Below are positions 12,216 through 35,714 of a DNA stretch of 39,050 bases, in pieces. The notes beneath the pieces were generated by a model that searched no databases, was not told the DNA's origin, and saw only the letters and a program-made list of their open reading frames with translations. Within the stretch, counting starts at the first letter, position 1, and the number at the start of each line of letters is the position of its first letter. The DNA is from a virus, in IMG/VR virus record IMGVR_UViG_3300018421_000073, positions 1 through 39,050 of that record; one strand, 5' to 3'. A program made the position numbers and the translations under genes.

Positions 12216-15200
12216 TTAATAAGATGCTACTGCTCTCATATCTTGAATTTTGGGAACATATGCAGGATTATCAGATTTCATTACAATCTTAATTCCGAAG
12301 GAAGAAAATTCTGGTAAATCCGAGACACTATATTCTAATTCTTGATATGACTCTTGCTTCTCAACAACACTGGAAATGGTATTATCTGCAGTTGCAACAG
12401 TAGGAACATCTGGAAGACCAGTCCCATTGAAGTATTGATATTCGATAACATCAAATGACTCCTGACTTGAAGACTCTTTATATCTAAAGAGAACTTGAAT
12501 ATCGGAAATGTCTTTAATGTTTGCTGTTAACTTGACATTAATGGAAGTTCCAGGATTTCCAATAGAAATCTCCTTGGTCACATACTTAGCAACGCTCGAA
12601 CTATTCAGGAAGTTATTTTCTGGAGAATAATCAATACCATCCGTATAACTTAATTCCTTAACTTCCCAATATGCTTTTTCATCTTCATCTTGACCAGTAT
12701 ACTTAATAATATCTCCTACGCGGAAGATATCTTCAACTCCAGGGTTTTGTGAAGTAATACTTCTTGCAACCTCTGGTTCTGCTATAGAAGCTTCGCTGAT
12801 AGATTGTGTGAATGTGGTGCTTCCATAAGGTTTCTTGTCGTTTTTCACAGTAATTATTTGATTCTTAATATCAAAGAATGTAACTCTACCTTCGATCTTG
12901 GCATCAAATGAATTTTGCAACGAGACATCTCTAGCAACAACTGTCGCACCATTTGCAATAATGGCAGGACCTTCAGTTCCACCAAACGAAATCTTCACTG
13001 GATCTGTAATAATCGAAGGTGTGATAGTTTCACCAGAAATCGATAGCGTATCTCCTTTAACAAAAGAATTAACAGTAGAGATTCTGACAATAACAACTGG
13101 TGTTCCACTTACTTCTTTTCTATCAACGACAATACCTTTTGCTTTGGAATTGGATCCTTCAATAGAATCTCCAATTTCAATGTCGCCACCAGTTAGAGCA
13201 CCTGTACCAAAACTATAAACTTCTTTTAGTTTTAATACCTGATCTCTTCTTCCATATCTCGTTTCACTACCAGTTGCTTTTTCAATTCTATTAGTAGATG
13301 TAATTACAGAAGCAGATGACAAATCAATAGCTGGGGATAGGTATGATACATCAGATCTAAAATCAATCTTATATTCTAAAGATCTGTTGATGTTATTCAA
13401 TACCTGATTAATCCTAGAAGCAATTACTTTTTGATTTGTAAAATATTGAATTTCATTTAAGAAAGTCTTTTCATAAGAAGTTTGAGAATATGATGTATAG
13501 TTATTCGTGTTAGAATCCACGGGAACAATATTTGTAGTCTTTACAGTGGACTCAATTGAAGTTCCACTGAATGACAAATAATTAACCTGTGGGAATAATC
13601 TTTCATACTTTCTATTGAAAGAAGCAAGAACTAAACTTCCACCGCCCTTTATGCTGGATGCTGCGGTTGTTTCATTAATAATATTGTATGTATCAATACC
13701 AGAATTCTGAACTTCGAATAGGGTGGTATTGAGTTGTGTATTTGATACACCACCAACTCCATCAGCACCACTAAAGAATACATAAGACTTTCCACGATCT
13801 TCGAATCCATGGTTCTTATGATAAACTTTTACAATTCTATTATTTAATTTGAACAGTTCTGATGTTGCATTTTGATCGGAAACTCCGCTTGTCTCAAATG
13901 GATTCAGAGACAATCTTTCCATGCCCAAGTTTTCATTCGAAATTCTTAGACTTGCATTTTTGGTGATATCAAATTCTGCACGATGCAATCTAAACTTGAG
14001 ATCTTCAAATAGATCTTCTGTCCAAGCGTTAGTATTTTGTGCCTTATACACAGAACCCAATAGTGGTTGAGTTGTTACTGGCGAACTTGTGACAATTTCA
14101 GTTTCTCCCAATCTCGATGCCCATAACTTATATTCAATCGAATCAGTCTCAATGACGAGTGCATAGGTCACTCCATTCTGAAGATATACTGGATTCTTGA
14201 ATTTAAATTTAGTAGGTGTTGTTGAATTTGTTACTTCTCCTGTATCGACAGCAACTCCCATTCTAACTGCTGGTGTGTCGATATTAATTGTCGCCGTAAT
14301 AACTGCTCCAGATGCAGAAGAACCGACTCCTCTCACAACAATTGCGGGAGGTGCTGTGTATCCAGATCCACCTAGAGCAACGGATGCGTTATAAATTTTA
14401 CCATTAGAAATTTTAACTGCACCACTTGCTTGACTTCCTCCTGGAAGTTGTGGACTTTCGAATGTTAAGAAAGCGGACTCGTATCCAGTTCCAGTATTAG
14501 AAATAACAAGATCTGAAACTGTTCCAGAGTCTTTTGCAATGGTGAGTGCAAGTTTTGTATTATTCGCATTGTTGTACTCAGTTACAGAAGTAATAATTAG
14601 ATTTTCATTTTGAATAAACTCTCTACCATTGTGATTTGACAGGACTAAAGTATATACCTGATTATTTGAAAGAATCACATTTCCATCTGCAGAAGCAGAA
14701 ACTTCAATGTTGGTCGTATCTAAAACTTTTAATAGAGGACCACTACAAGCAGAAACAGCACCAGTAATTGCTTCACCAATCTTTATGGTTGTTGTTCCGT
14801 TTGTATAGACACGAATCTTTGTATTTGGAGAAACTGTTGCTTCTGCTCCTGGAAGAATATGCTTCGCTGGTTTTTCTGCCTCTGTGTTTGTAATATATGC
14901 CCTAATGGGAATATCACTGCTCTTTGTGTTGAAGAACAATTCCAGACTCGTGATAAACAAACCACCCTCGAAAGAGTCAATGGTAAATGTTTGTGCAAGT
15001 GGATTTGGTTTGATCTCCACATCAGTAACGCTATCAATCCTCTGAATACCTTCATTTGCTTTGAAGAAGGCAGGAGATGTTGATGTAATAGTTGCTGGAT
15101 TCTGGGGTAGTTTTCCAGTAGCATAAAACTTGAGATCTGTATATGTATCTACAGTATCCTTAGCAGCGTTGGCGGCACTGGATGTAAATCTAATAGTTTT

Positions 15201-18200
15201 GGTTCCTGTTGAAACTCTTACTACAGTTTGGGTGAAATCATATGATACAGTTTTTACATCTCCTGTCCAAGTAGTATTTTCTATTGGAGGATATCCTGCA
15301 GGAATCAAGATTAAACCACTGGCATTGCCATTTTCATCTGTGGTAATAGGTGAATTAAATCCGATTAAGGAATTGCCAGCAATACCACTGAATCTCGAAT
15401 CTGGATTTACCCATCTAGAAATATCAATACCATCAAGGAATGGATATACTCTAGTAAATGGTTTTAGACGTCTGACTGTGAATTTGACGGGGACTGATCT
15501 TGCATAGAACTTCAGTGAAGTTGCAACAGAACTCTTATCATCGGAATTGCTTGTAATGCCCTTTCCAATTTCATTGTTATCTGGACTTACATTGGAGCTG
15601 CTAGATGTAGATGCTCTTGCAACTTTGGCAATTGATTGATCTGTATTGGTGGTTCCTAGGGAAGTGATTGTTCCAAAAGTACCAGTAGTTCCAACCCAGT
15701 TAATCACAAACGAATTAAAGATACTTGAGAAAGTTTCTGTTACATCATCTTTTGCAATAAAGATTGAATATAGACCAGTATTATTATCAATAATTAGTGG
15801 TTCTACAGTTTGATCATACCAAGAATCGATTTCTGGAGAAAGTGCTCCATCGCCAACATACTGAAGAGTTACAAATGGATTTGGATTAATCGTCTTAGTA
15901 GCAAAGTCATTACCAATTACTTGAATTTCAGTATATGGTAAAGTTACTATATCTCCAGTTCTCACATAACCATCGACAAATCTTTGATCATTCGTTGTAT
16001 TAATTTCTTTCAATCTTAGTGAGTCTTCCTTATTCGGTGCTCTCATTACAGATTGTTGAGTATCAATAGAACATCTATAGTCCTCGGAGGATACTTCACC
16101 AATTTTGTGAGATTCAAAATTATCTACAACAAAACCTGTCTTGAATCTATCTAAACCAATAGTATCCTTAATCTGCATATTAAGAGCTTGTTGCTCTAAG
16201 ATACTGAGTGTAGTGTAATACTCAAGACGCTCGATTCTCTTTTCTAGTTTACCGATGTCCTTCATCGTATATCTACGATTATCAACAGGAGTAATTCTTA
16301 CATCCTTACTGCTCGTAGTAAACGCAGGAATATAATAGTAATAGAGTGGAATGGCATCATCAATTAGTTCTGGTTTAGTTGGATTCTGTGAAGAATTTCC
16401 TTCCTTAAGAACAAACTCACCTTTTTTATTCAGATAAATTCCATCAATTCTATTCAAGAATTCTGTTTGAGTAAACTTAAATGTAAACTCAATATTATCA
16501 TCAGGTGCTGGAATAACTGATGCAACACCACCATTTCCGATGAAGTTTCTGATAATAATCTCTCTAGAAGATTGATCTTGGAAACCAGTAATTGTAGAAG
16601 TAGAATCTACCTTAGGTCTGAAGTCGAATACATTCTTGAGTGATACAATTCCATATACAGCAGAGTTGAATGTTGGAATTTCATCAAGAGTTACACCTGC
16701 TTCATGTAGATAACTATCAACAGTGCAAAAATCTCCTTGAGAATGTTCAAAGTAATCAAATGCCACAACCAATTGCCCAACAGGAGCTTCAAATCCTGGT
16801 TTTAGGACAATTCTGGAAACATCATAGAATGTATCTCTTTGACCACTATCAAAAGTATATCTTTCGGTTACATCAATGCCAGTAACAAGATTTCCTGCGC
16901 TGTCAATTACAGGAGCAGCTGCTGAGGTTCCTTCGTAGATATACTTTAATTTGTAGACATCAGAGTATGTTTCTACCGAAGTATCTTCGCTATCGAAGTC
17001 TTCACCTCTAATAGGAACAATTCTATCACCAACAGACTTAATCAAAACTCTCTTATTTTTTACCGAAGTCTTGATTCTGGGTCTTGCCTTGCTCAACTCT
17101 AGAGTCGCACTGAGTTTGAGTTTGGGGAATGGTTCTGATGATGTACCGAAAAATTCTGCAGGAAGAGAAACCTGAACACTTCCAGCATTAAGACCACTAG
17201 TAACATCTGTTGTGTTTGATGTAATGATATCTGTATCTGTTAGATAAATTACATCTCCTCTAGAAACATTTGTAGAACTACCAGGATCTAGTACAGTCAT
17301 TACAAAGTTTTCTGGACTAAACGCAGAAAATCTTTGTGTACCAAATGGTAATTGTGCGGTGAATGTTATATTTCCACCACTTCCAGATGCCTCTGTAATA
17401 AAATCTTTTCTGTAGTAGAAAGTAATTTTAGAATCATTAGTTCCCTGTGAAATTGAGGATACCTGACTTCCGCCAGTTGGATACAACAATGATCCTTTAT
17501 TGGCGTTTTCGATTACAGAACCAACCTTAACAACAGAACTATTAGATACATCTGATGGTAGTACAGTATCGAGATAAATTCTTGACTTTAAAGTTCCCTC
17601 TGGTTTTGTCGCATACAAAACCATTGCTTTTTCTGTAAATCCATCATCTCCAGTAAACTGAATATAATCACCTGATTTCAAGAAAGTAGTCGTATCGCCA
17701 TTAAAACCATTACATGAAAGGAACTTATATCCAGCAGTTCCAGTAAATGTAAAATCTGTAATTGGAGTTAATTTTGCATATGGTGCTTTGGAAGTTTCAA
17801 GGTCGGCAGTAAACTTATTACTTCCACCTGAACCAAAAGAGCAACCAAAAGATTTAACATCTTCTGGTGTATAGGTGGTAACAGTATTTCTGAATAAAAC
17901 TGCTTCAATCTTTGCGGATGTTGTTACAGATGAAGAACCAACATCAACTAAAACTGTTGGTGGTTGAGAATATGTTTGCTTGAACAAATCTCTGTTTAAA
18001 ATATCAACAGCATATACTTTACCGTCAATATTTGTTTTGACTTCTACTTTAGAGGTGTCATATACCACACCGTTAATCGTGAGACCAGATCCTGCTTGAT
18101 AACCACCACTGCTTCTATACTTAACAATAAAATGCGAGATTGTGTTATTTGTAGCAATTCTCGCAGAATTTGTTCCTCCTAAAGCATCCTCTTCTTCTCT

Positions 18201-20402
18201 AATTACTTCGCCAGGAAGAAACTTACCAGAAAGAGTTGTTACCATCAACTCATTAGCAGTAGAGAATGCCGATCCTTGAGCGCCCTCAATGACCCCGTAA
18301 GCACCACTAGTGACACCAAAGATATATTTACCCTTAGTGAACTCTCCCGTAGCTACAGGGGCATCCAGAACGATCTTAGTGTAGAATGTAGGACCGAAGT
18401 AACCCAATCCAAAAATAGCATTATATGCAGACTGACCACCAGATAATTTGCCTTTAGAAACAACAACATCTGTGTCTGGATTAAAACCAAATCCCGTTTC
18501 TCTAAATGTATAGTTTGCTGGTTTTGCTACGCCGATCAGTGGAGTTACATGCTCGCTGTAATCTACAACATAACCAAGAACTTGGTCTGGATCCAATGAT
18601 GGATTTGAAGTATCTGTATCTAAGTAAATTTTTCTAGTTAATGCTCCATCAACTTCATCATACTCTTTAAGGAGACCAATCAACTCGTCTTTATTTCCAA
18701 GAAGAGTCAATTCTGCATATCTCTTAGCAGCGAGAATATCTGGTCTATATTTTACTGAAAATCCAATGAGTTTAAATGTCTTAAATGTTGCTGGAGATCC
18801 ACCATCATAAGTATATACAACATGAACATTTCCATTGCTGTCACAGCAATCATCAAAACTTAAGTCATTTGTTGTATTAATTTTGTCGATTAAACCAGTT
18901 TTTGTAATATCAACAGTAATCGTTTTGATTGCCTGTGTGTCCGTATATAAAGTTCCTCTTCTATTGACCGTAGATTTTGTTTCTACTCCAGTTCTAGATG
19001 GATCTTGTGTTGAAGATCCAAGGAATGAAATATTTTGTCCAATCGTACCGTCATTATAAGTCCTGTACAATTCTAGATCTGGATATGCAGTTAGATCTGA
19101 TCCGTCAGCATTAAAAGGAACAGAACCATAAACATTAGTAACTGGATATGTTGGAAGACCTGAGGTTTTTAGAGTAATGTTCTCTGCGTTTACAGTTTCC
19201 CTAGCTTTGTTAATTACAATTTCCTTGGTTTCTTTATTAACAATTTCATATCCTCTAATATATGCCTTACCAGGACCAACACTAACAACCATCTTTTGTG
19301 ATGCATCCTGAATGCTAAATCCATTTACTAGATTGTCGCTATCAGCAGCATAAATTCCGTTGTTTCCATCTTTCTGATAGTATTCTCTTACATCAGTATC
19401 AAAACGATCAACAACATAGTCTCCAGACTCATCATATGTTCTTCTTGCAAGAGTATTTTCTAAAACAGTATAATCGGTTGCTTTAATTTGCTTTTGGATT
19501 ACACCACTCTTTACAGTAAGAATCTTGATAAAGTTTTTATCTGTTGTAGCATCTAAATCATACTTTTCCAGATTTAGAGAAATGCTTAGTCTGTGTGCTC
19601 CAGGAGCAGAGTAATTTGAAGAACCAATAGCATTATCATATAATGTTACATCTTCTTCTGGAGTTACAATCGTTTCTTGAATTCTAAATCCAATTTTTGC
19701 TGATGGGGCATTGTAATATGGATCAATAACAAATAACTCCTCATCATTTCTTACAAAATATCCATTAACAAAATAGACACCTTCTTCAACCTTTACAGCA
19801 GAAGCAAATCCCATCGCGGGACTTGAAAGAACCGTTTCTGCTTTTGTATCTGGATCAATTACAGTAACAGTAGTTGGTAGAACACTTCCATCAGTTCCAA
19901 CTACTAACAAAGGAGTATTAACTCCATTCACAACTTCTAGAGTTTCACCTTGTCTGAAAGTATTTTCATTTCCAGCATTACCACTAGAAAGATAGTTTAC
20001 AAACAATGTATCTGCGTTAGTCTCTGTAGATTCTTTAATCGCTACGAGATTTGCAGTTACGCCAGAAGTAAGACCTCTCAGTTGTCTTCCGACGATTTGA
20101 CTGATATCATATTTTCTGAATACTATTACACCATCTTCATTTACCGCAACTTCGGAAACGGAAGACAGTTTTACATAGTCTAATCTATTATTAAGACCAA
20201 CTTCTCCAGGAACAACCAACTCACCCTGTTTGAAAGCATTCTTGCCGAAACTCTCAATCTGGTTTTGAAGGATGGACTGAACTTGGGTTAATTCTCTTCC
20301 TTGAATCGAGTAACCAGGACGGAATAGAATTTTGTAGAAATTCTTATTCGCATCAAAGTCCTCATAATAAGGAGAAACATTAAGGTTAGTCTTCTGTGGC
20401 AT
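12216..20402 (-). CDS. Giant DUF4815-like virion structural protein (2728 aa)
   Basis: The N-terminus (about 1-240: NLNVSPYYEDFDANKNFYKI, LFRPGYSIQGRELTQVQSIL, PGEVGLN) is the DUF4815 type found in large baseplate-associated proteins of T4-like marine phages. A helical, probably coiled-coil stretch (about 1370-1410, KLEKRIERLEYY) precedes conserved segments around FEGGLFITSLELFFNTKSSD and GVTYALVIETDSIEYKLW. Gly-Gly-Ser-Gly-Tyr repeats lie near residues 1970-2030. There are no membrane segments. It follows gp8, in the place of T4 genes 9-10, so a peripheral wedge or fibre-attachment role is likely but not proven. Its leader carries an unusual hairpin (20405-20450) that covers the ribosome-binding site. 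Confidence 0.85.
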   Translation of the reverse strand: MPQKTNLNVSPYYEDFDANKNFYKILFRPGYSIQGRELTQVQSILQNQIESFGKNAFKQGELVVPGEVGLNNRLDYVKLSSVSEVAVNEDGVIVFRKYDISQIVGRQLRGLTSGVTANLVAIKESTETNADTLFVNYLSSGNAGNENTFRQGETLEVVNGVNTPLLVVGTDGSVLPTTVTVIDPDTKAETVLSSPAMGFASAVKVEEGVYFVNGYFVRNDEELFVIDPYYNAPSAKIGFRIQETIVTPEEDVTLYDNAIGSSNYSAPGAHRLSISLNLEKYDLDATTDKNFIKILTVKSGVIQKQIKATDYTVLENTLARRTYDESGDYVVDRFDTDVREYYQKDGNNGIYAADSDNLVNGFSIQDASQKMVVSVGPGKAYIRGYEIVNKETKEIVINKARETVNAENITLKTSGLPTYPVTNVYGSVPFNADGSDLTAYPDLELYRTYNDGTIGQNISFLGSSTQDPSRTGVETKSTVNRRGTLYTDTQAIKTITVDITKTGLIDKINTTNDLSFDDCCDSNGNVHVVYTYDGGSPATFKTFKLIGFSVKYRPDILAAKRYAELTLLGNKDELIGLLKEYDEVDGALTRKIYLDTDTSNPSLDPDQVLGYVVDYSEHVTPLIGVAKPANYTFRETGFGFNPDTDVVVSKGKLSGGQSAYNAIFGLGYFGPTFYTKIVLDAPVATGEFTKGKYIFGVTSGAYGVIEGAQGSAFSTANELMVTTLSGKFLPGEVIREEEDALGGTNSARIATNNTISHFIVKYRSSGGYQAGSGLTINGVVYDTSKVEVKTNIDGKVYAVDILNRDLFKQTYSQPPTVLVDVGSSSVTTSAKIEAVLFRNTVTTYTPEDVKSFGCSFGSGGSNKFTADLETSKAPYAKLTPITDFTFTGTAGYKFLSCNGFNGDTTTFLKSGDYIQFTGDDGFTEKAMVLYATKPEGTLKSRIYLDTVLPSDVSNSSVVKVGSVIENANKGSLLYPTGGSQVSSISQGTNDSKITFYYRKDFITEASGSGGNITFTAQLPFGTQRFSAFSPENFVMTVLDPGSSTNVSRGDVIYLTDTDIITSNTTDVTSGLNAGSVQVSLPAEFFGTSSEPFPKLKLSATLELSKARPRIKTSVKNKRVLIKSVGDRIVPIRGEDFDSEDTSVETYSDVYKLKYIYEGTSAAAPVIDSAGNLVTGIDVTERYTFDSGQRDTFYDVSRIVLKPGFEAPVGQLVVAFDYFEHSQGDFCTVDSYLHEAGVTLDEIPTFNSAVYGIVSLKNVFDFRPKVDSTSTITGFQDQSSREIIIRNFIGNGGVASVIPAPDDNIEFTFKFTQTEFLNRIDGIYLNKKGEFVLKEGNSSQNPTKPELIDDAIPLYYYYIPAFTTSSKDVRITPVDNRRYTMKDIGKLEKRIERLEYYTTLSILEQQALNMQIKDTIGLDRFKTGFVVDNFESHKIGEVSSEDYRCSIDTQQSVMRAPNKEDSLRLKEINTTNDQRFVDGYVRTGDIVTLPYTEIQVIGNDFATKTINPNPFVTLQYVGDGALSPEIDSWYDQTVEPLIIDNNTGLYSIFIAKDDVTETFSSIFNSFVINWVGTTGTFGTITSLGTTNTDQSIAKVARASTSSSSNVSPDNNEIGKGITSNSDDKSSVATSLKFYARSVPVKFTVRRLKPFTRVYPFLDGIDISRWVNPDSRFSGIAGNSLIGFNSPITTDENGNASGLILIPAGYPPIENTTWTGDVKTVSYDFTQTVVRVSTGTKTIRFTSSAANAAKDTVDTYTDLKFYATGKLPQNPATITSTSPAFFKANEGIQRIDSVTDVEIKPNPLAQTFTIDSFEGGLFITSLELFFNTKSSDIPIRAYITNTEAEKPAKHILPGAEATVSPNTKIRVYTNGTTTIKIGEAITGAVSACSGPLLKVLDTTNIEVSASADGNVILSNNQVYTLVLSNHNGREFIQNENLIITSVTEYNNANNTKLALTIAKDSGTVSDLVISNTGTGYESAFLTFESPQLPGGSQASGAVKISNGKIYNASVALGGSGYTAPPAIVVRGVGSSASGAVITATINIDTPAVRMGVAVDTGEVTNSTTPTKFKFKNPVYLQNGVTYALVIETDSIEYKLWASRLGETEIVTSSPVTTQPLLGSVYKAQNTNAWTEDLFEDLKFRLHRAEFDITKNASLRISNENLGMERLSLNPFETSGVSDQNATSELFKLNNRIVKVYHKNHGFEDRGKSYVFFSGADGVGGVSNTQLNTTLFEVQNSGIDTYNIINETTAASSIKGGGSLVLASFNRKYERLFPQVNYLSFSGTSIESTVKTTNIVPVDSNTNNYTSYSQTSYEKTFLNEIQYFTNQKVIASRINQVLNNINRSLEYKIDFRSDVSYLSPAIDLSSASVITSTNRIEKATGSETRYGRRDQVLKLKEVYSFGTGALTGGDIEIGDSIEGSNSKAKGIVVDRKEVSGTPVVIVRISTVNSFVKGDTLSISGETITPSIITDPVKISFGGTEGPAIIANGATVVARDVSLQNSFDAKIEGRVTFFDIKNQIITVKNDKKPYGSTTFTQSISEASIAEPEVARSITSQNPGVEDIFRVGDIIKYTGQDEDEKAYWEVKELSYTDGIDYSPENNFLNSSSVAKYVTKEISIGNPGTSINVKLTANIKDISDIQVLFRYKESSSQESFDVIEYQYFNGTGLPDVPTVATADNTISSVVEKQESYQELEYSVSDLPEFSSFGIKIVMKSDNPAYVPKIQDMRAVASY

Positions 20403-20404
20403 CG

Positions 20405-20450
20405 TACTCCGCCAAATACAAACATCTAGTCGTTAGTATTTAGCGGAGTA
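20405..20450 (-). promoter_or_regulatory. Leader hairpin covering the RBS of the 2728-aa gene, overlapping a late promoter motif
   Basis: On the minus-strand RNA, UACUCCGCUAAAUAC (20450-20436) pairs with GUAUUUGGCGGAGUA (20419-20405) over 15 bp with one G-U pair; the loop is 16 nt. The 3' arm holds GGAG, which ends 4 nt before the AUG at 20402 and is the only plausible Shine-Dalgarno. The 5' arm contains GCTAAATA (20444-20437), a late promoter-like motif. A transcript starting at that promoter would lack the 5' arm. Confidence 0.65.
20437..20443 (-). promoter_or_regulatory. Late promoter-like motif CTAAATA inside the hairpin
   Basis: Minus-strand CTAAATA lies 35 bases upstream of the ATG at 20402, the same variant and distance as the motif before the terminal fibre gene. 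It has one mismatch to NATAAATA. A start about 6 nt downstream would fall near 20431, in the loop of the hairpin. Confidence 0.4.
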
Positions 20451-20459
20451 AAATATAAA

Positions 20460-22271
20460 TCAGAACTCGATTACAAGTTTGATATCTTCAATTTGGTCAG
20501 GGGCACGAGTGATGAGACGACGGTTCTCGATGTAGATGATATCGCCAGAATTATTAGCGATCTCAGGGGTGCCAAGACCATTGCCTAGAGTAGCACCTTC
20601 TAGAGAACCGTTGAAGGTAGTATCAACATTGCCATCTGCAGCAGAAGTTGCTCCATCAATGTCAGGAGTTCCATTTGCTTCAAACAGATAAACTTGACCG
20701 TTATGTAGGTGTTGATCTGGTGACTGATAATACTTGAGGATACCGTCTGTGCTTGAACCGTTATCTAAGGTCCAAGAAACAACAGTTCCTTTTGCGATAT
20801 TACCATCAGCACGAACTTGGGTAATCTGCTCATCTGCAATGTAGTCAGCAGTTGTGCCAGTAATCTTCAATGAGAAAAGACCATTGAGAGTTGCAGCAGT
20901 TGATTCCGTAGTAGTTCCATAGTCATATGGATCTGTAATAAGACCAATTCTACGGAAGTCGTTATCTACAGGGAAGTCTCCAGAACCTTCAGCGTAGGTT
21001 AGACGAATGTTCGTCATAACACGCTTCGCGTTGAGTTCTAGATCAGCATCAAAACCATGACCGCCCTTAGGTGGAAGAACAACTTCAATTGAACCAGTAT
21101 GTCCAGCTGGGGTTGTTACTGGGGTAGTCAAACCTTGATCGCTGTAAAGGTTTCCATTTTCAAGGAGAACATTCGCGTAAGTGTATCCAGATCCACGAAC
21201 AGCAACTGATACAGAACTAATAGCTCCTCCAGCAGTAGTTGTAAATTCAAGAACACCACCAGTTCCATCTCCCTTGATGGAAGTGAATAGGGTTTGTGAT
21301 GCAGGTAAGTTTGTGCCAGCATCTTCGATTAGAGCAACATCAACAGCACCAGCAACTGCGATACCTGCTGTTGCTGCTCTGGTTGTTTCACCAGGAAGAG
21401 TGATTGGCATGAAGTCTGAAGACAAGAACTTCAGAACATCATCTGTAGGAAGTGTGAACATATACTTCCAAATATAACCAGCACCAGATGGTTCTGTAAA
21501 GATTCCCGTTCCAACATCATATCCAGCAGCTGCTGTTCCTGGTTCTACAGTTGCGTTTTGTCCAGTTGGATTTGCTGGATTCTCTCCATTGTAAAGGCAC
21601 TTGAAGACTTCGTATGAAGAGTTCATTACATAGAACTTAGCCTCAGAAATACTATCAAAACCTAGAGCGGTTTGCTTACCGACTTGACCACCGCCACCAG
21701 GAGTAGCAGAATAGTCTGGTTTCCACATGTCAAACTTGGGATTAGCAACTAGATCCCAGTTATAGCGGCGAACAACAGCGCGAGCATTCGCAGATGTTAC
21801 TCTCTTAGCAGCAATAATGTCATCATAGACGCCATATTTTTCGGTTTGGTTGTCTAGTGGAAGTGGTGGTGCATCTTCTGTAGCGTAACGATATACACCA
21901 GATTTTGCAGTAACTCCAGTATCAGCAGCACCATTATACTCTTTTAGAGTTGTTCCAAGTGCAGGAGCAGAAGCAACTCCGCTGCTTCCAAAAACATTGG
22001 TTAGGAGAACTGAGTTGGAGTATACTTCCTGAATGGTAGCTCTCCAAGTTGCAGATCCGTAATTAGTACCAGCATAGAGTTCGTTGCCAGGTGTCAGAGT
22101 TCCACCAGCAGTGGAGAAAGTCTCTACATATACCTGCCACGCTTGTGGGCGACCTACGAAGAAGTAAAGTCTGGTACGGTCGGCGCTAGCATCAGATGCG
22201 CCTTCACTAAGCGATTCAAGGAATTGTTTCGCATTAAAAATTCTAAATTTATCAGAGATGATAGCAGCCAT
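20460..22271 (-). CDS. 8: Baseplate wedge subunit gp8
   Basis: The N-terminus MAAIISDKFRIFNAKQFLES, with FFVGRPQAW soon after, fits the gp8 family. The conserved block KGGHGFDADLELNAKRVM, then GDFPVDNDFRRIGLITDPYD (about residues 400-455), and the C-terminal end ENRRLITRAPDQIEDIKLVI are hallmarks of T4 gp8. In T4, gp8 is a dimeric wedge protein that joins gp10, gp7 and gp6. At 603 residues this one is far longer than T4 gp8 (334), and it carries a Gly-Ser-Gly-Tyr repeat (about residue 365) of the kind seen in the neighbouring fibre proteins. It follows the gp7-position gene as in T4. Two overlapping late promoter motifs lie about 40-50 bases upstream. Confidence 0.93.
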   Translation of the reverse strand: MAAIISDKFRIFNAKQFLESLSEGASDASADRTRLYFFVGRPQAWQVYVETFSTAGGTLTPGNELYAGTNYGSATWRATIQEVYSNSVLLTNVFGSSGVASAPALGTTLKEYNGAADTGVTAKSGVYRYATEDAPPLPLDNQTEKYGVYDDIIAAKRVTSANARAVVRRYNWDLVANPKFDMWKPDYSATPGGGGQVGKQTALGFDSISEAKFYVMNSSYEVFKCLYNGENPANPTGQNATVEPGTAAAGYDVGTGIFTEPSGAGYIWKYMFTLPTDDVLKFLSSDFMPITLPGETTRAATAGIAVAGAVDVALIEDAGTNLPASQTLFTSIKGDGTGGVLEFTTTAGGAISSVSVAVRGSGYTYANVLLENGNLYSDQGLTTPVTTPAGHTGSIEVVLPPKGGHGFDADLELNAKRVMTNIRLTYAEGSGDFPVDNDFRRIGLITDPYDYGTTTESTAATLNGLFSLKITGTTADYIADEQITQVRADGNIAKGTVVSWTLDNGSSTDGILKYYQSPDQHLHNGQVYLFEANGTPDIDGATSAADGNVDTTFNGSLEGATLGNGLGTPEIANNSGDIIYIENRRLITRAPDQIEDIKLVIEF

Positions 22272-22308: not shown

Positions 22309-22322
22309 TATTTATATTTATG
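22309..22322 (-). promoter_or_regulatory. Tandem overlapping late promoter motifs upstream of gene 8
   Basis: The minus strand reads CATAAATATAAATA: CATAAATA (22322-22315) and TATAAATA (22316-22309) overlap by two bases. TATAAATA is the exact T4 late -10 consensus. The nearer copy ends 38 bases before the gp8 ATG and lies in the 58-base gap after the upstream gene. No -35-like element is needed for this promoter class. Confidence 0.7.
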
Positions 22323-22329
22323 CAGTTAT

Positions 22330-25300
22330 TTAGGAGATTACATAGAATACCAATTCATCACCATTGGTAATGGTGTTTGTTCCTCTGACGAATGTACAAC
22401 CAGTAAATGTAGTAGAAGTTTTTCCAGTATATTGAATCAAAGCTCCCGCACTAGTAAACAAATATCCACTTGATGGGAAGTGAGTTGTACTATTAACAGA
22501 GATTGTTGTTGGGATAGTAGCACCAGTTGTAGTGGTAACTGCAACTGGATTATTGAATGATGGAATACCGAGATTGAACTTATCGCCAGCAAGAGTGAAA
22601 TTGGAGTTTCCTCTAAATTCAAAGTCATTGATGGTGACACTTGCAAATATTCTTTCAAATTCTGCAATAGAAATACCACTGGAAGGAATCAATCCTTCGT
22701 CCTTAGAAACATAATTCCAACTCTTAATATTTGCGCCCAAGTTTCCAACTGTGTAGTTGCCAACATAATCAACTTCTTCAGACTCTAGAATGTTTCTGAT
22801 TTCAATGGAAGTTCCATCTCTCTGTACAACTTCTCTGGAAACAAGAGTAATATCTCCAGAATTTCTAGTTGAAACAGGATTTGTAAAGTAAATTGTTTCT
22901 TGGAAATAATCTACAACACCACCTGGAGGAGCAAAGAATACGATTTCTCTTAATGAATTTCCAAGTACGGTGGATTCAGTTTCAATTTGAATTTCGGCAG
23001 TTGCTGCTATTGTTACAGTTTGGATAGTATTTGCTACATCACCTTGAGATGTTGTTTGTCTTCTTCTATCAAATGTTACACTCGATATCGAAATAACATC
23101 AACTTCTGCTTGTACAATCTGAGTCTTCTGTAGTGTTACTGTAGAAGAAGACGCTACAATTGTTTGAGACTGAGATTGAGTCAGTCTTTCTGATCTACCA
23201 TCGGCAACTCCACTCTTAACACTGGTTTCACTTACGAACGAAGATACACCACCAAATGCAACACTTACATAATCTTCTACCTGACGAATGAATGTTCCTG
23301 GTGCCCAATTTTGTTCAACAGTATTATCTTGTGCTCGTGTAATGTTTACAAATCTATCTTCACCTTTTCTTGGATAGTAGACTACCTCAGTACCAACAAG
23401 TAACTTACCATGACTTGAGAATCTGCCAGTATTTCCGATATAAACAATTGTATCTCCAATATTGAGAGGTGCTTGTAAATATCCTCCTGGTGCGGTGAAT
23501 GATCCTGCAGATGTAATGCGAGAATTATCAACTTCTACTTGAACGATAGATGTTGCCACCCTATTGGCAGTGAGAGCAGTAAATGTGACAATATCTTCTG
23601 CCCTGACAGAAACAATTCTCGAAACCTCTCTGTCTGCTGATTGCAACCTTAGTACGCCGCCTTCTCCATTAATCTCAACAGGATCAGGTGTAATGTATAC
23701 AATATTTCCTGCTCCTGGTTGGGTTGAACCCTCGGGCATGAAAGCAGCACCTTCTTCAATTGGATCTGGATTAATTTCAGTTTCTATTGTATCCGAAGAA
23801 GACGATGGAGATCTTAGAATAATAGTAGAAATAAATGCCTGATTTGGTGGTGGAAGTTCAATAGCAGATACAAACGAACTAATAGTAAGAGATTGACTTA
23901 CAACTGATTGAACATTTAATTTAATAAGAGAAACCTTAATGTCGTCTTGCTTGACTACATTGTATTTGCGAGTTACAACAACATTTGGAGCCTCTGTATA
24001 TCCAGATCCTCCCGATACTAGTTCTACACCAATTACATCACCTTTAGAAGTAACAACCCTTGCTCTAGCACCACCACCGTTAGAATTTTTTGGAATAAAC
24101 TCTATGTTTGGTGGAATCTCATAATTATACGCTGTTGGTCGGTAGAACCTATAAAGAATGTTTGTTCCTCTAGAAAGTCCACCTGGAGTAGAAGTTACAA
24201 ATGTATGGGCACTAGTATCACTAGAAATACCAACATTTACTGTAAATGTGTTTGTAGTAACAGAATCAATAACAATCCACTTCCCTGCAAGAGGATCAAT
24301 TCCCTGTCTTGGATAACTGTGCTGGGTAGTATTTGCATCTAATGCACATGTAAAGACAACAGAATTATTTGCAAACTTAACAAATTGACCCTCTGAGAAT
24401 CCATGATTTGGAATAGTTCCAACAAAAATACCAGCTGCTGGGTCATATGTTGCATCAGTAATAGTATGAGTAGAAATATTTTGTACTTCCTCTCGTACCT
24501 GTCTTTCATTCCAAATTAACTTACTTACAGAACCGTTTTCAATCTCTGCTTTTATGCTCAGACCTTCACCAAAAGTCTTTCCGTTATATCTGGTTATTCC
24601 AAAAGAACCATAGATCGAATTAGCACCATCGTGATTAACTCTAAAGTCTTTTGATGATACTTTGTCTGGAGTAGATCTAATAGTTCTATAAGAAGACTCT
24701 CCATCTACTTTAATCTTATCTCCAGGTGATAATCTAAAGAATCCTTTTCTCTGCAAAAGATCATTGGATTTCTTCACATCATTCTTGAAATATGATCTAT
24801 CAGTTTTGACTAATTGAGTTTCTGTACTGGAAATTGTTATTAATGGACTTCCGAAGAAATGTGTCGAAGATGTAGATGCACCTAAAGTCTTTGCGTATGT
24901 TGCTCTATTAGGATCAAAATCTATGTTATTTGTATAAATTTTTAGTTCAAGTTGATCCTGACTAATTACTTTCCAATCATATACCTTTCCGATAGGATAA
25001 ATGTCAGATCCATCCTCTTGATATAGGTATATGATTTCATAAGTTGTTAAAGCGTAATCGTTGGTAACAGCAAAACTATTGAAGTCAGATGCTACAAAAG
25101 CACCTGTCATAGATACGGTTTTGTCATAAAGATATCCATTAATATCAAAGTTGTGGATTGTTACTGTTGGTTCAATATCTCTACCATAAAATAGTCTAAT
25201 ATCAACTACATCTTCAGATCTAATTGGATATGAAAATGTAATAGTAGACCCAACAATTTCATACGCAGTTACACGCTTTTGAATTACACCATTTAAAATG

Positions 25301-28300
25301 ACGATTAAGAATCTTTCATCATCAATATTGAGAATAGTATCTTCTGCAACGCTAACAATTTGATGTGGTCCTGTAGTCTCTCCATCAATATTAGCATCGT
25401 CGATAGTATATCTCTTTTGGTTTCCAACATTGACAGCAAAGAATTTTTCTACCTGAGTTGGTTCTCCAATTGTTCTGGCAGACAAATCTTGATCCCAAAT
25501 AGGAGGAGAACTAAACTTGATTAAGTTTGGTACTACAGTCTTATCAATATAATATGCATCAAACGCTGGTTCATTTGGTGAATGTTTGGTTCTTTGGATA
25601 ACTCCGTTTAAAGCAACGAATAAATTCTCATCTGCTTCGGTCAAAGCAACTGGAGATCCATCATCGTCCCAATATAATTCAAAATCTTTTGTCTCGCCAT
25701 CAATGTAATCTGGAAGAGTTAGTGGTGTAGTTACATTGTCAACCATAGAATTTTCCATGATTGAAGCATATACGGACAAAGCAGAAACTACATCTTCACA
25801 TTCTCTAGAAAGTAGTTCTGGATCTGGAATAATATTGTAGTTTGTATATACAGTGAAGTTTGACAAATAATATCCAGATCTAGAAGGATTTACTGGAGAT
25901 GGATCAATAACCTTTGGACCCACATTTAAAATCTCTTCTACAATCTCCCAGTATGTGTTTAATGAAGATTCTACTCCAGCACATGCGGGAGAGACTAAAT
26001 CAATAATTACCTCAGTATCTGTGACAGGACCAATATTTGTATATGGGGTAGTTCCAGGCAAAGATTGCCTCATTGCCTTTACACATAAATCAGTCAATAC
26101 TAATTTGAAAACATCTTTAGTTTCTTCAAATTCATCGACAATATAATTGAGTGTGCTTCCTTTGAAGTATAACTCGGCATATTCAACAAACTTATTATTT
26201 CCACCAAAACGAAGATGGAAGATTGCTGCGTCGATAAAGTATCCAGTATCGCGTCTGCACTTAGATTCTTTAGTAGACCAAGTTAACCCAGGATACTTAT
26301 CCTTTGCATAATTGATTGCATAATCAATAATGTAATCTTTATTTTTCTGAATCAAATTGGAAGCATCATAGAATGTTCCATTATTGACACCACTAAACGA
26401 GAAGGTTGCTTGATTCAATCCACTGAATATAGGTGGGATTGACAAAGAACTTCCTGGTGGCAGACTGTATGTGTTTGGTGGAGTTACAGCACCAGTTGCT
26501 GTTGGCAATGAATTAGATCCAGCAGCTGCAACTCCATTTAAGTAAGTTACCCCAGGAGAAGCAGATCCAGCGGGTGCTACACTACTAGAAACTAAAGCGT
26601 TAGCAGAAACTCGCACCTGAGTGTCAGAAACAATTTCTATTACTCTAATATTAGCATCAGATGGGAAAGCACTACCAGAACTTACATAAGCACCGATAGC
26701 GATATTATCCGTACTATCCACTGTAATTAGATCACTGCCAGCAGTATATGAAACATTCACAGCAACCCAATCCCAATTTCTGGTTGCCATTTTTGCAAGT
26801 CTGACTACATATTGAGCAGCATCATTAAACTCAATATTTTGTCTGCTATACTTTGTTCTAAATGAATCTGCATATTCTTTCGACTTTACATTACCACCAA
26901 ATCTAATGTCATGTTGAATAGCATCACAGAAGTTTCTTAAATCTGCAGTGAACTTTTGTTCAATAGCAGTCCATGGAATAGTTCCATCACTTAATTGTGT
27001 GGAATACTTATTTTCAAACCATCCAATAGTCTCGGCAACAATAAAGTTTGTATTGAGATCAATTTGATTAGCAGCATCGATCCATCTACCATCTCTTTGG
27101 TAGAAATTTCTAATCTTTCTGAAATGCTTATCATTATATACATTATCTAAAAATTCGATGTTTCTAATTAAAACCTTTTGTGCAGGAATCTCTTGACCTT
27201 CTACAACGGCAAAACCTAGTGGTGGAGTTGCAAAAGTAATTTGATTTCCAGAAAGGGTATATGCTACATTTGGTTCTTGTAATACGCCATCTAGAGTTAC
27301 AATTAAATTCTCTGCACTATATGGCGTATATGGAGAACCTCCATTATAAAGTGTAAATGTTTTTGTTCCAACCAATTGTCCAGAGGAATTGAATGTGCCA
27401 TCAAATGGACTTGGATCAGTTTCTAATTGTTTTAGAGATAGTTCTCTTGCCCTTAGAGTCTGTAAGTCAAATTCATTTACATCAACTGAACCTGTCGATC
27501 TAATTGATCTATAATCTTCTGTTGAAATAATTGTTTGAGTTAAAGTTCTCTTTGTACTTTCTACAGTGATCTTGTTTTTATCTGGATCCCACAATTCAAT
27601 GATCGAATAGTGATCTGACTTTGGCATCTCTGTTGGCATTTCAACGCCATTGGGTGCCTCAACTTTAGGATCAATGATAACTTCACCAAATAATTTAAAT
27701 CCAGCGGGGTGGGTTGTATCTTTTACAAGATCTCTCCAGGACTCAATAGAAGTCCTAGACTTGACAACATAAGAATAATCCTGATAGAAGAAAGAATCTG
27801 TAATTCTTTGGTTTGCATTTCCGATTCTGCCTCTATCAGAAATAAATCTACCCGTGTTATCAGAATATGGTTGTAAGTCTAAATCAAATACTGTTACATA
27901 GGTTTTCTCAATATTGACAGTCTGTTGTGATATTTTGCTTGTGATTGGATAATCTTCTCTGAGATCTCCATCAATATTGTAGATTTTCAGTAAGTTAGAA
28001 CCATTTCTCCACTCTCCAACTAAAGCAGAAAATACTTCTGTACCATTAATGGTTTGTGTGAGACGCTCTCCCTTCAAAAAATTCTTTGTATATCCACTTA
28101 CGACAAGCACATAACTTCCAGTGTACTCTGGTAAAATTGTCTTGTCTTGGTGGAAGGAACTGCCGTTCTTAACGATTCTGACATTCTTTGGTAATCCAAC
28201 TCTACTTCCATATGCAAATAATTTTACATCAGACTCTACGATTGAGATAGTTGGTGCTTTTGTATAATTTTTGCCTTTGTTTGTAATAATAATGTCTAAA

Positions 28301-31300
28301 ATCTTTCCATCTCTTTCTGTAATAGCAAATTGAGCGCCAATACCATCACCGTCCAATACTACAACTTTTGGATTGACATAATTGCTTCCAGAGTTGGTAA
28401 CTTCTACTGAAGAGATAACATTTAAATTAGAATCGTATTTTACAGTTGCTTCTGCGAGATTGGTAGAACTTGGATAAACTCCAGTAACAATAGGAACTTT
28501 TTTGTAGTTTCTACCGATATTTTGTACAGATACTGTATTAATTTCTCCAACAGCGAACTGTGCTTGTGTGCTATATGAAATAGATCCAGATCCATCCCAT
28601 TGTGGAATTGATCCTAATGAATATGAGAATGCATTGCTGGTAACAAAATTAACAACATGTCTTCCAGCAAGAGGATCTCTAACAACTCTTAGATATGAAT
28701 TGTTGCTACTGATTTGACCATTCTTGTCAAAATAGAAATAATTGGAAAAATTTGAACTTTGTGGATTAGTATAAGTATTAGTTGCAATTCTGGAACCAAA
28801 TCCAAATTTCATATCAACAAATGAACCAGGATTTCCTTGTGCAATATCAGGTTCAGATTTCTCTGTAGAGAGAATGTTATAATTTCCACTTGGACTAAAG
28901 TCTAAATGAGATCCTATTAATGAAGAATCCGAAGTATCAAACAAGTAGCGATATGCTTCTTGAACTTCAATGATTGGGTTTACCGTCCATTCAGACACAA
29001 AAGTATTTGGAGCATTTGTGTTGAAAATGCTCATTGTTGGATCTAACTTGAATTCGAATCTATTTTCTGGATCTGTAGCTGCAATTACTTTTACAAATTT
29101 TCTGGGCGTACTTTCATCGAAGAATGATGTTTGAGTTGTGATTGGTTGCAGTGTGTTTAGAGACTGACTAGATGGGTATATTACTAGTAGTGATTGGTTA
29201 TTTTTATCATAAGTTATAGTCTCGCTGCCATTCAGGGTAAATGTATTTGTAAAATTATACCCAGCATTATACCAAGATACTGGTGCATTATTATAATGAT
29301 CTGTGGCAGTAGTTCCTTCTTGTCCTCTTATTACAGTCAGGGTATCGTTGCCAACTTGATTATTGACAATAGAAACAATTTTGACTACCTCAGAATCAAT
29401 CAATAGTAAATCATTATTTGAGTAATCAGCAGCACTGGCTACTTTGATCGTAGTTGCTTCCTCTGATACACCAACATGATCAACATAGAATTTTACTCTC
29501 TGCGTAGATGAACCAGCAGATCTGTTTAAATCAGAATCTTCGATAGAAAGAACATCTCCTCTCTTATATCCAGATCCGCCATCTTGAATCTGAACACTTG
29601 AAACATATCCAGTTACATCGTTAGCATTTATTGGACTGACAACAACGCTGACTGTGGCATCAGATCCAGATCCACCAGAAATTGGGACATTTGTATATGT
29701 TCCAACAGGATACAAAAGACCCGCATTTACAATCAGAAGTCTTCCAATTCCATCATAGTCAACAGTCGTATTATAAACAGGAGTTTGCAGTTTTACTTCT
29801 TGGTAAATTCTCTTCCTTACAAAATACTTTCTAGTCTTTGTAGAGTCATTTGGATTTACTGATACATTAATTACATCATCCACACCCATTTTGTGTTCTT
29901 CATTGGTGTAGACTAAAGCAATATTTGCATCAATATCGAAAGGAACTAAACCATCACTGAGATAATCGATGTTTTCAATTTTAGAACCAGATGTATCTGA
30001 TAGATTGTCACTCTTTAAGAAGTAATTTAATGTCTCATTATCTTGGAATGCACCACTCAGAACCTTAACAAGTACGGTATTTCCAGCAGTTACACTTTCC
30101 AAAACCTCTCCAGTTGCCGCTGTGGTAACAACACCATCGGTCAAAGAAAGAACAGATCCCTGTGAATAAGTTGAAACTTTATCAAGGGAAAGTCTCAATA
30201 CCTTAATATCTGTAGCAAAGGTAGCGGTGTTATTGAACTCACCATGAACATCTCTAATAAGAATAGTATTGTCGTTTCTTATTGTTCCTACAATTGTGCC
30301 ATATGCACCAGAACTTGGTTGCCTTAGTGTATCGCTTTCAAAAACATACGATGGAATTGTGATAGTTAATTTGACCGCTTTAGTCTCAAAACTCTCAAGA
30401 GATGATACAGTCTTTCCCTTTACAGAGCTCACAACCGCTTCTACCTCTCCACCTTCTGTGCCAGAGTTATCAAATACTAATTGGGATCCAACAGAAAATG
30501 TATCTACAGAAGAAACAACATCAACCGAATCAATACTTCCAGACTCCAAATCCTGAACAAATGCACTTAGTCCACCACCATTTGATGGCAGTCCAGGAGT
30601 AAACAATCTTTTTACATTTCTAGAAATGTTTGACTGATTTAAATTCGTATTATAATTTGAATCTACAGGAAGCGAGTAGAAATTTTCTCCAACAATATAT
30701 GGAAATACTGGTGTTTGATCTGACTTGATTGTCAAGAAGTATGCATATGTTCCATTTGGAAAATCTGTAGTTACACAGAATCTTCCATTGTTTTCATCAA
30801 GAGATCCTGATTTGTGTCTATACTCATAATCCTGAATAAATGTACCAATTTCATATTGCTCATTGGTTGGACCATATTGTCTGCTATTCTTAAGACCATA
30901 GCTGCTCCTCATCCTAACAATGGAACTTTGTGGATTGAGTGGATCTTCGTGACCAAATGGACCATAAATTGGGTTACCATCATAAGCAAATCCAAGAATT
31001 GGTGAATGAGTCTTTACGGATGGTTCTTGGTCTAGATTATCTAAATTATCATTTAATTCAATTCTAAGTGCTTTGGGGTTAGCAACATGAGCATATCCAT
31101 ATTCCAATGCATTATTGTAATTTAAGAATACAAACCCGTTATTGTCATCTAGTTTAGAACCTAAGTTCTTATAACGATCTTTAACCCAAGTTGTAATTTC
31201 TGCTTCTGCGATAGCACCAGAACCAATGGAGACGATATCAACTACAACATTTTCTTGTGTATAGAAAGATCCACCATTGATTAACTCGAAACCAGTCAAT

Positions 31301-33269: not shown

Positions 33270-35072
33270 TTACTCTGCGTAAGCAATAAAACTACTGTTT
33301 GCAATATCAACATCAAGATATACTTCTCTTGAAGCAATAATATCATTCTGTCTAGGCAGAACTCTTAGTTGAATTCTGTTATCAACAAAAGACCCTTTGA
33401 TAATCGTTAGATTATTCATCATGATTTCGCCATTTTCATAATCTACTGTGCCCACAAAGTCGTTCAGGACTACTTTTTTACCAGTAGCAGAGTCTATCCT
33501 ATATAGGACGATTTTGCCTAACCTATCTTCCAAATAGACTGTATAATTGGGATATTCAGTAACAACAAAACCTGTCGAAGAGACTACAGGATCGTCGTCA
33601 TCTAGAAATGCATTTTGATAACAAATCTCGTAGAATGTTGTGCTATTGAGAATAGGGATAAAGTCCTTCCTCATTGTAACAGAAGTTAAGTTCGAGTTGA
33701 TTGATAAATCTGTATTATCAATAACGGCAATCGCTTTACTGTATCTAAATTTACCATTAAACTTCTCTGTGTCAGACGATTCAATGTAAGACTGCACAGC
33801 ACCGATTACTTTTGATTGAATTTGTGCAGGTTTATCGCTGGTCTTGCTCTTGTTGTAAAAAATCTTACTGGTCAACTCAACATAGAGAATAGATGGATCT
33901 ACCAGCTCAGGAATAACCGAAGCAACGCTATATTTTTTAAGTTCTTGCTTAATTTCTTGTTTTGTGATGCTTGTTAAGTATGCCGCATCTTCTGGTTTAA
34001 TAGCAATAAAGACACGACCATATTGAGGTGGTACTTGATCTTCACCACCAAAAATAATAATGTCACTTACTGCGGGGTAGATATTACGAATAAGTGCATC
34101 GTAGTCATCAGCAGTTACTGCTCTGTTTTGTGATGCATACGCTTTTGGAGCAGTGTATTTAATCTTCTTAATAGTCTCAATGTCTTCCCCACCAGCAGCT
34201 GCTATGGTTTTTGAAGTGTCTATAGTAACTACTGGTGTGCTAGGTGCTTGACCATCTGGGTTTTCTAGTCTTCCATTAAATGTGAAGGACTTAACACCAT
34301 TTGATATTGGACCACTGGTTATTAGATATCCTACCTCAACCTTCTCACCATTCTGAAGCGCCCTACCAATTACACCATCTCCAAATACCAATTCATATCT
34401 CTCATCCTCAATCTCCTCTAGGTGGAAAATTTCTGATTGAGGATTTGCATTGAGAATATTGTCGATTAAAAGAAATTCTTTATATACGGTAGAATTCGAA
34501 TTCTCAAATACTTTTACTGTAATAGTATTTGTATCAACACCAGAATTGTCAATTACGAAACGCTGATTCTTAAGTGAAGTGTTGATAATATATGTGTTCT
34601 TGACATATGATCCTTCTTTGATAGGAACATTAGAGAAAGTCGCTACATTGTTTAAAACTTGTGCTTTTACATCTTTAACTGCCACATACTGATACAATGT
34701 GTTGTCATAAGATGTGATGAATCCTGTTCCTGCCTTTAAAATCAGTTCGGTGTCATTTCCAGGATTGGCATATGATGCATTAAAAGTTAGATATGCCGTT
34801 GGTGCTGTAATGGACTTTGGTCTATAACCAAGTTGTTTGGCAATAGAGACAACATTATCCCTCAAGGTAGCAGAACTCAAAAAGAGTTCATTTGCCACCA
34901 TATTGGTGTTAAATGCAGTATAATATGTGTTGTATGCTAATACATCTAGTAAGGTTGCAAAAGCAGAACCCTCAAAGTCATAATCAGTGAAATCTGAATT
35001 GGATCTCAGATATTCTTTAAGATTATACTTAATCTGATCAAAATCTAGATTAGCTACCTGTGCGTATGGCAT
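33270..35072 (-). CDS. 6: Baseplate wedge subunit gp6
   Basis: A 600-residue protein close to the usual gp6 length (T4: 660). N-terminal signatures are LDFDQIKYNLKEYLRSNSDF, FEGSAFATLLDVLAYNTYY and LRDNVVSIAKQLGYRPKS. The central block DERYELVFGDGVIGRAL (about 223-240) and the downstream AVTADDYDALIRNIYPAVSD (about 318-338) are typical of gp6 and the related baseplate-J fold. In T4, gp6 dimers form the inner ring that links wedges and drives the sheath-contraction switch. The ATG directly abuts the gp25 stop (TAAATG), and the next gene starts 5 bases after its end, so 25, 6 and the 3644-aa gene are very likely cotranscribed. Confidence 0.95.
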   Translation of the reverse strand: MPYAQVANLDFDQIKYNLKEYLRSNSDFTDYDFEGSAFATLLDVLAYNTYYTAFNTNMVANELFLSSATLRDNVVSIAKQLGYRPKSITAPTAYLTFNASYANPGNDTELILKAGTGFITSYDNTLYQYVAVKDVKAQVLNNVATFSNVPIKEGSYVKNTYIINTSLKNQRFVIDNSGVDTNTITVKVFENSNSTVYKEFLLIDNILNANPQSEIFHLEEIEDERYELVFGDGVIGRALQNGEKVEVGYLITSGPISNGVKSFTFNGRLENPDGQAPSTPVVTIDTSKTIAAAGGEDIETIKKIKYTAPKAYASQNRAVTADDYDALIRNIYPAVSDIIIFGGEDQVPPQYGRVFIAIKPEDAAYLTSITKQEIKQELKKYSVASVIPELVDPSILYVELTSKIFYNKSKTSDKPAQIQSKVIGAVQSYIESSDTEKFNGKFRYSKAIAVIDNTDLSINSNLTSVTMRKDFIPILNSTTFYEICYQNAFLDDDDPVVSSTGFVVTEYPNYTVYLEDRLGKIVLYRIDSATGKKVVLNDFVGTVDYENGEIMMNNLTIIKGSFVDNRIQLRVLPRQNDIIASREVYLDVDIANSSFIAYAE

Positions 35073-35465
35073 TTATCGTGTTCTCTCTAGGAAAAAGTCA
35101 ACAGTTACTGGAGTGTCTTCTCTACCGACAATAGTATAAGACAGTTCTACTTCGTAACCATTTTCTGAAGAGTCTGGAGTACACAATATGGAATCGATCG
35201 AAATCCTTGGTTCGTAGGTTTTCAAGGTATCGGCAATTTCATTTCTCAAGATTGCTGCTGAACCATAATCCAATGGTTCAAACAACATTCTAGCAATATC
35301 ACACCCCAGTCTAGGTTGAAATGGTCTTTCACCCTTTTGAGTTAACAAAAGGTTCTTAATTGACTGTGCAATAGCTGCCTTATCCTTAACAACGATAAGA
35401 TCATCGCTGACAGGGTGTTTTTTGAAAGTGACACTCAAATCTTTGAATGTCTGAACAGTAGGCAT
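35073..35465 (-). CDS. 25: Baseplate wedge subunit gp25
   Basis: A 130-residue protein, the usual length of gp25 (T4: 132). It shows LLTQKGERPFQPRLGCDIAR and FEPLD (residues 40-65) and the family's EPR motif at 85-87 (TYEPRISI). gp25 is the conserved wedge protein that binds gp6 and gp53 and nucleates the sheath; it is shared with type VI secretion (TssE). Its leader has no clear Shine-Dalgarno sequence but carries an AATAAATA promoter motif and a 7-bp hairpin. It abuts gene 6. Confidence 0.95.
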   Translation of the reverse strand: MPTVQTFKDLSVTFKKHPVSDDLIVVKDKAAIAQSIKNLLLTQKGERPFQPRLGCDIARMLFEPLDYGSAAILRNEIADTLKTYEPRISIDSILCTPDSSENGYEVELSYTIVGREDTPVTVDFFLERTR

Positions 35466-35471
35466 GACACA

Positions 35472-35491
35472 GAATTAGACTAAGCTAATTC
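35472..35491 (-). promoter_or_regulatory. Inverted repeat in the gp25 leader
   Basis: GAATTAG (35472-35478) and CTAATTC (35485-35491) form a perfect 7-bp stem with a 6-nt loop. The hairpin ends 6 bases before the gp25 ATG. If transcription starts 5-7 bases after the AATAAATA motif, it would begin inside the 5' arm, so the structure may form only in read-through transcripts. Confidence 0.4.
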
Positions 35492-35499
35492 TATTTATT
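35492..35499 (-). promoter_or_regulatory. Late promoter-like motif AATAAATA upstream of gene 25
   Basis: Minus-strand AATAAATA fits the NATAAATA late consensus and lies 27 bases upstream of the gp25 ATG, in the 33-base gap between the 71-aa gene and gene 25. It would drive the core wedge genes. Confidence 0.5.
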
Positions 35500-35714
35500 C
35501 ACTCGTGCCAACGCTCTACGAAGTCATCAAAACCGCCTGCTCCTCCACAAGGACGCTCAAGGCGGTCTTCAGGAAGTGGATATAGTTCTTCCTTCATCTT
35601 TGATCTACGACGCTTTGCAGCGGCATCTAGGAGGCGATCACTGTCCGTTTCAGTAATCAGTGTCATACCTTCTTCGATAAATTCTTCACTTTTGTCTACT
35701 GGAAATAGTCCCAT
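35499..35714 (-). CDS. Small acidic protein of unknown function (71 aa)
   Basis: A 71-residue frame with one of the best Shine-Dalgarno sequences in the window: AGGAG (plus-strand CTCCT, 35722-35726) 7 bases before the ATG. It contains a basic patch AAAKRRRSKMKEEL (about 32-45), then PLPEDRLERP and a C-terminal FDDFVERWHE. There is no signal peptide or membrane helix. It stands alone between a palindromic terminator-like element and the gp25 promoter motif. I do not recognise a family. Confidence 0.75.
   Translation of the reverse strand: MGLFPVDKSEEFIEEGMTLITETDSDRLLDAAAKRRRSKMKEELYPLPEDRLERPCGGAGGFDDFVERWHE

Follow-up and report, generated by a model that had tools for sequence, protein, structure and literature searches.

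A T4 gene e-type hairpin around a candidate late promoter probably serves as a translational insulator before a giant structural gene of marine cyanophages

The gene e design, in which a late promoter lies within a hairpin that hides a ribosome-binding site, is known mainly from T-even phages, at lysis and homing-endonuclease genes; in T4, the read-through RNA of gene e is translated approximately 100-fold less. As set out in PMC3014915, T4 gene e (lysozyme) has a stem that hides the Shine-Dalgarno (SD) sequence and holds the late promoters in its 5' strand: the stem forms in longer transcripts, its 5' part is missing from late ones, and the mechanism is experimentally established. The same review describes inhibitory start-site structures in T4 soc, 49 and I-TevI, and likewise in mobE of Aeromonas phage Aeh1, with the SD or the AUG in a helix of the longer transcripts; these are mostly homing-endonuclease or small genes, and the available portion of that account reports no exchange of their hairpins with a terminator. 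It further describes split ribosome-binding sites in T4 genes 25 (a baseplate gene) and 38, where the structured start aids translation through a shorter SD-AUG spacing, and it lists no gene e for S-PM2, Syn9, P-SSM2 or P-SSM4. Cyanomyoviruses encode homologues of g55, g33 and g45, and the late promoter of S-PM2 and Syn9 is NATAAATA (PMC2984593).

The stretch of DNA analysed here (the window; 39,050 nt of IMG/VR record IMGVR_UViG_3300018421_000073) is a portion of a T4-like marine cyanophage (Kyanoviridae-like) whose genes lie here on the minus strand: gp25 (35073-35465), gp6 (33270-35072), a gp7/VrlC-like protein of 3644 aa (22330-33264), the baseplate wedge gene gp8 (20460-22271), which is the putative source of read-through RNA, and the putatively controlled gene, which encodes a 2728-aa DUF4815/phrog_358 virion structural protein (12216-20402, ATG at 20402). 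The gap between the last two genes is 57 nt, in coding sense TTTATATTTTACTCCGCTAAATACTAACGACTAGATGTTTGTATTTGGCGGAGTACG with the ATG next, and the coding-sense layout of the junction element is ...TTTATATTTT[ACTCCGCTAAATAC]TAACGACTAGATGTTT[GTATTTGGCGGAGT]ACG-ATG. The 5' arm, UACUCCGCUAAAUAC (20436-20450, minus strand), and the 3' arm, GUAUUUGGCGGAGUA (20405-20419, minus strand), form 15 consecutive perfect base pairs (20450-20436 with 20419-20405), beyond which come a U-U mismatch and three extra pairs (20434-20432 with 20423-20421). The 3' arm covers GGAG at 20407-20410 (minus strand), the sole SD of the 2728-aa gene. A sequence-only reading of the window had described this 15-bp stem over the gene's only GGAG and left the strand unstated; our analysis confirms the stem and places it on the minus strand.

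The predicted structure is very stable: its minimum free energy is -32.3 kcal/mol over 111 nt (z = -5.4), and none of 200 shuffles folded equally well. In read-through RNA the computed cost of opening the SD region is 21.7 kcal/mol and the probability that the SD is unpaired is close to 0; the corresponding cost is 0.3-8.7 kcal/mol at all 11 remaining genes in the window and reaches a maximum of 14.35 kcal/mol at 600 random minus-strand positions. For an RNA begun at 20431 the computed cost is 5.9 kcal/mol, and in a scan of transcript 5' ends it falls stepwise, dropping from roughly 20 to roughly 6 kcal/mol when the RNA no longer includes the bases through 20443. T4 gene e, taken as a positive control, gave 13.4 kcal/mol for the long RNA and 4.2 kcal/mol for the late RNA by the same measure. 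Among the 308 ORFs of a 200-kb relative whose junction belongs to the same class, the equivalent start site ranks highest (21.4 kcal/mol, vs. 3.3 for the late RNA) and is the sole clear case among 32 ORFs with an upstream TAAATA. The shuffles, the random positions and the other genes rule out a chance stem. We also rejected an intrinsic terminator, since ACGAUG follows the 3' arm and neither strand carries a U-tract, and a dispersed repeat or mobile hairpin, since the 5' arm is single-copy in the 200-kb relative; all 47 database matches to the perfect arm pair fall at the gp8/DUF4815 junction. A search of the window returned no Rfam family at gathering score and no tRNA.

Within the 5' arm lies the late-promoter motif GCTAAATA (20437-20444, minus strand). 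TAAATA is present 39-43 nt upstream of the ATG in all 101 distinct relatives, as part of the full T4 consensus TATAAATA in 23 of them and of CTAAATA in the remainder. T4 late-promoter spacing puts the predicted +1, six positions past TAAATA, at a G (20431, minus strand), the first base past the 5' arm, and the base at this position is a purine in 101/101 relatives. CTAAATA is overrepresented 15-90 nt upstream of ORFs in Sf-CH1b, the closest isolate (10 observed vs. 1.1 expected). The S-PM2/Syn9 promoter NATAAATA shares the TAAATA core and the placement before late genes, whereas most relatives here have CTAAATA instead of ATAAATA, and 23 have TATAAATA. Given the conserved TAAATA, the purine at +1, the enrichment before ORFs and the fit to the S-PM2/Syn9 promoter, we regard CTAAATA/TATAAATA at the junction as a very likely late promoter. 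No specific report of CTAAATA in this role in cyanophages emerged from a literature search. Upstream, gp8 has predicted late promoters of its own, CCTAAATA and CATAAATATAAATA (22309-22334, minus strand): tandem motifs TATAAATATAAATA precede gp8 in all 128 loci checked, each with TAAATA, and a terminator-like T-run upstream of gp8 is absent from all 128. RNA reading into the giant gene would therefore be mostly late. Across the whole window TAAATA is scarce (23 observed vs. 43 expected from dinucleotide shuffles) and several of its minus-strand sites are intergenic, which would fit a tendency to avoid stray late promoters.

Comparison of 161 gp8/DUF4815 junctions, 101 of them distinct, from phages in IMG/VR and GenBank revealed two architectures. 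In 63 of the 101 junctions (100-107 nt) an intrinsic terminator (e.g. CCCCCGAGAGATCGGGGGATTTTTTTT) follows gp8, the promoter comes next, and just the inner stem (AAATACTAG/CTAGTATTT) is well paired. The other 38 (55-67 nt) lack the terminator, and in most of these ACTCCGC or ACTTCGC lengthens the 5' arm and pairs with GCGGAGT. The median probability that the SD core is unpaired is 0.30 with the terminator vs. 0.01 without it (P = 5.5e-7), and the SD opening energies of read-through RNAs differ between the classes (P = 8e-8), P values to be weighed in the light of the SD-core measure having been chosen after a wider accessibility window (-14 to -4) failed to separate the classes; the failure of the wide window is explained by its coverage of the conserved inner stem. 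Late RNAs of the two classes are alike. The outer duplex contributes -9.5 kcal/mol without the terminator and -4.0 kcal/mol with it, compared to -3.7 kcal/mol for shuffled 5' arms of the terminator class, and swapping 3' arms between classes changes the duplex little; the class difference resides in the 5' arm. There are exceptions on both sides: 7 of the 38 terminator-less junctions are weakly occluded, and 7 of the 63 terminator junctions strongly so.

In a tree built from flanking coding DNA, the terminator label switches at least 13-14 times. Of 13 independent tree comparisons, about 10 pair terminator loss with strong occlusion and none shows the opposite (sign test, P ~0.002). From the gp8 stop to the ATG (63 nt), the window junction is 100% identical to that of one relative (L025) with a gp8 end only 71% identical. 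The junction may thus be exchanged as a recombining cassette, in which case the 13 comparisons may contain fewer independent inventions. Over 20403-20462 the junction, loop included, is more conserved in some relatives than the coding DNA on either side (L025: 100% vs. 71% and 84%).

Co-variation of the two arms, which the sequence-only reading had named as a check on the stem, is positive among relatives and weak. One position shows a compensatory change, from G-C to A-U, and each 5' arm modestly favours its own 3' arm (P ~0.02); other changes, in the inner stem, lead to G-U pairs (U-A to U-G, C-G to U-G), and RNAalifold on two alignments returned partial consensus stems. Little covariation is possible because both arms bear other signals, namely the promoter and the SD. 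In two relatives (L112 and L148) the 3' arm has GGCGATAGT in place of GGCGGAGT and no GGAG, and by eye the stem is retained with a one-base bulge.

We consider it probable that the junction carries a T4 gene e-type conditional ribosome-binding site acting as a translational insulator. Polymerase coming from the gp8 late promoters, or from farther upstream, would read through into the junction; in the resulting RNA ACUCCGCUAAAUAC would pair with GUAUUUGGCGGAGU and hide GGAG, and the RNA would yield gp8 and only a small amount of the giant structural protein. Late RNA polymerase of the gp55/gp33/gp45 type would initiate from the embedded CTAAATA at approximately 20431, in the loop, giving an RNA without the 5' arm and with GGAG exposed, and output of the giant protein would be governed solely by its own late promoter. 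In relatives, the same insulation would usually be achieved at the level of transcription, through an intrinsic terminator downstream of gp8, the two solutions swapping repeatedly. The sequence-only reading had likewise proposed a gene e-like design with the promoter in the 5' arm and silenced read-through RNA; anatomy, energetics, conservation and the T4 control support this well, and its further claim, that late RNA starts in the loop, loses the arm and frees the SD, stands as a prediction from the position of +1 just after the 5' arm and the computed 5.9 kcal/mol.

The locus resembles T4 gene e in the SD-hiding stem, the late promoter in the 5' arm and the computed behaviour of the two transcripts. 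It differs from T4 gene e in that the gene is a giant structural one in a Kyanoviridae-like cyanophage, the sequence is another and the stem is longer and more stable; moreover, the upstream gene that supplies read-through RNA is itself late, and the hairpin exchanges with an intrinsic terminator among relatives. T4 soc is a structural gene too, as is the DUF4815 gene. In contrast to the structures of T4 genes 25 and 38, which aid translation in that account, the cyanophage stem would hide the SD.

Since read-through RNA would be mostly late and the hairpin exchanges with a terminator, insulation is the purpose that these data suggest, and several other purposes have to be weighed against it. 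Where the terminator is lost, the stem could instead protect or define the 3' end of gp8 mRNA, as an exonuclease barrier or an RNase III site, with SD hiding as a side effect. Such a role likewise predicts exchange with a terminator, and outward growth of the inner stem would unavoidably reach the SD; however, lacking a U-tract, the stem does not qualify as an intrinsic terminator, any simple stem within the gap would suffice and yet the extra pairing targets the arm with the SD, and the promoter is located in the opposite arm, which lets late RNA escape precisely. We regard this explanation as unlikely. Temporal control in the style of T4 gene e, with early or middle read-through from far upstream kept silent until late transcription, has that gene as its precedent (PMC3014915), and in Sf-CH1b genes that are probably early lie upstream on the same strand. 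It nevertheless seems rather improbable: gp8 and its neighbours are late-type, gp8 having late promoters of its own by motif, early silencing would act on nothing but a structural protein, which is not known to be harmful when made early, and neighbouring structural genes have no such hairpin. Of the temporal or dosage control that the sequence-only reading had suggested, the temporal part is thus less likely than that reading implied, given the gp8 late promoters in 128 loci, and the swap with a terminator speaks for insulation or dosage. The device is probably, in the main, one of translational insulation between two late units rather than of early/late timing.

It is quite improbable that translational coupling explains the stem, with ribosomes terminating at the gp8 stop melting it and linking synthesis of the giant protein to that of gp8. 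The stop lies just 1-2 nt from the stem in 5 of the 38 terminator-less junctions, as coupling would favour, but in the window and in most relatives the two are 9-12 nt apart, roughly as far as the leading edge of a terminating ribosome extends, and the ribosome would therefore reach only the base of the stem; a separate conserved promoter would also be superfluous. That the dyad works as DNA, as a regulator's operator or a cruciform at the promoter, with an incidental RNA stem, is highly improbable. The inner dyad TAAATACTAG/CTAGTATTT is indeed retained even in terminator-class junctions, but the inner-stem changes to U-G preserve RNA pairing and break DNA symmetry, and the outer extension follows the absence of the terminator.

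More distant cyanophages have other arrangements. At the junctions of S-PM2, S-RIM44 and S-RIM32 GGAG is absent and CCTAAATA lies in a different small hairpin; in P-SSM4, Syn19, S-RIM8 and P-RSM1 gp8 overlaps the downstream gene, leaving no intergenic gap and thus no room for the element. The device is, on the junctions compared, confined to one clade of large cyanophages, as the distant phages have either another hairpin without GGAG or overlapping genes. In S-RIM44 (L166) the different CCTAAATA hairpin extends across the stop codon of gp8; in S-PM2 (L177) pairing is possible between AAGTTAGTA, a segment of gp8, and codons 5-8 of the following gene, whose start would then be enclosed. Sf-CH1b has two more giant or adhesin genes with a hairpin over the start region and the late promoter in its 5' arm: those of a 4070-aa short tail fibre (L180:22320-22369; SD opening 8.2 to 3.0 kcal/mol) and of a lectin-domain protein (L183:19921-19965; 11.1 to 4.3 kcal/mol). 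Before gp25 of the window (35466-35500, minus strand), AATAAATA is followed directly by a hairpin, GAATTAGCTTAGTCTAATTC, and then by the gp25 ATG, and an SD is not clear there; the Sf-CH1b gp25 leader has the same layout with an altered arm (CTAGTTC), and the start of T4 gene 25 is structured as well (split SD).

In conclusion, we lean towards the view that, at this one junction, these cyanophages use an intrinsic terminator and an RBS-hiding hairpin built around a late promoter as interchangeable insulators of the giant structural gene, swapping one for the other, with the 5' arm evolving to match the SD whenever the terminator is absent. A gene e-type design would here guard a giant tail/baseplate gene of abundant marine phages, and the natural series of more than 100 relatives, in which the hairpin replaces the terminator, makes the insulation idea testable by comparison of the two phage classes.
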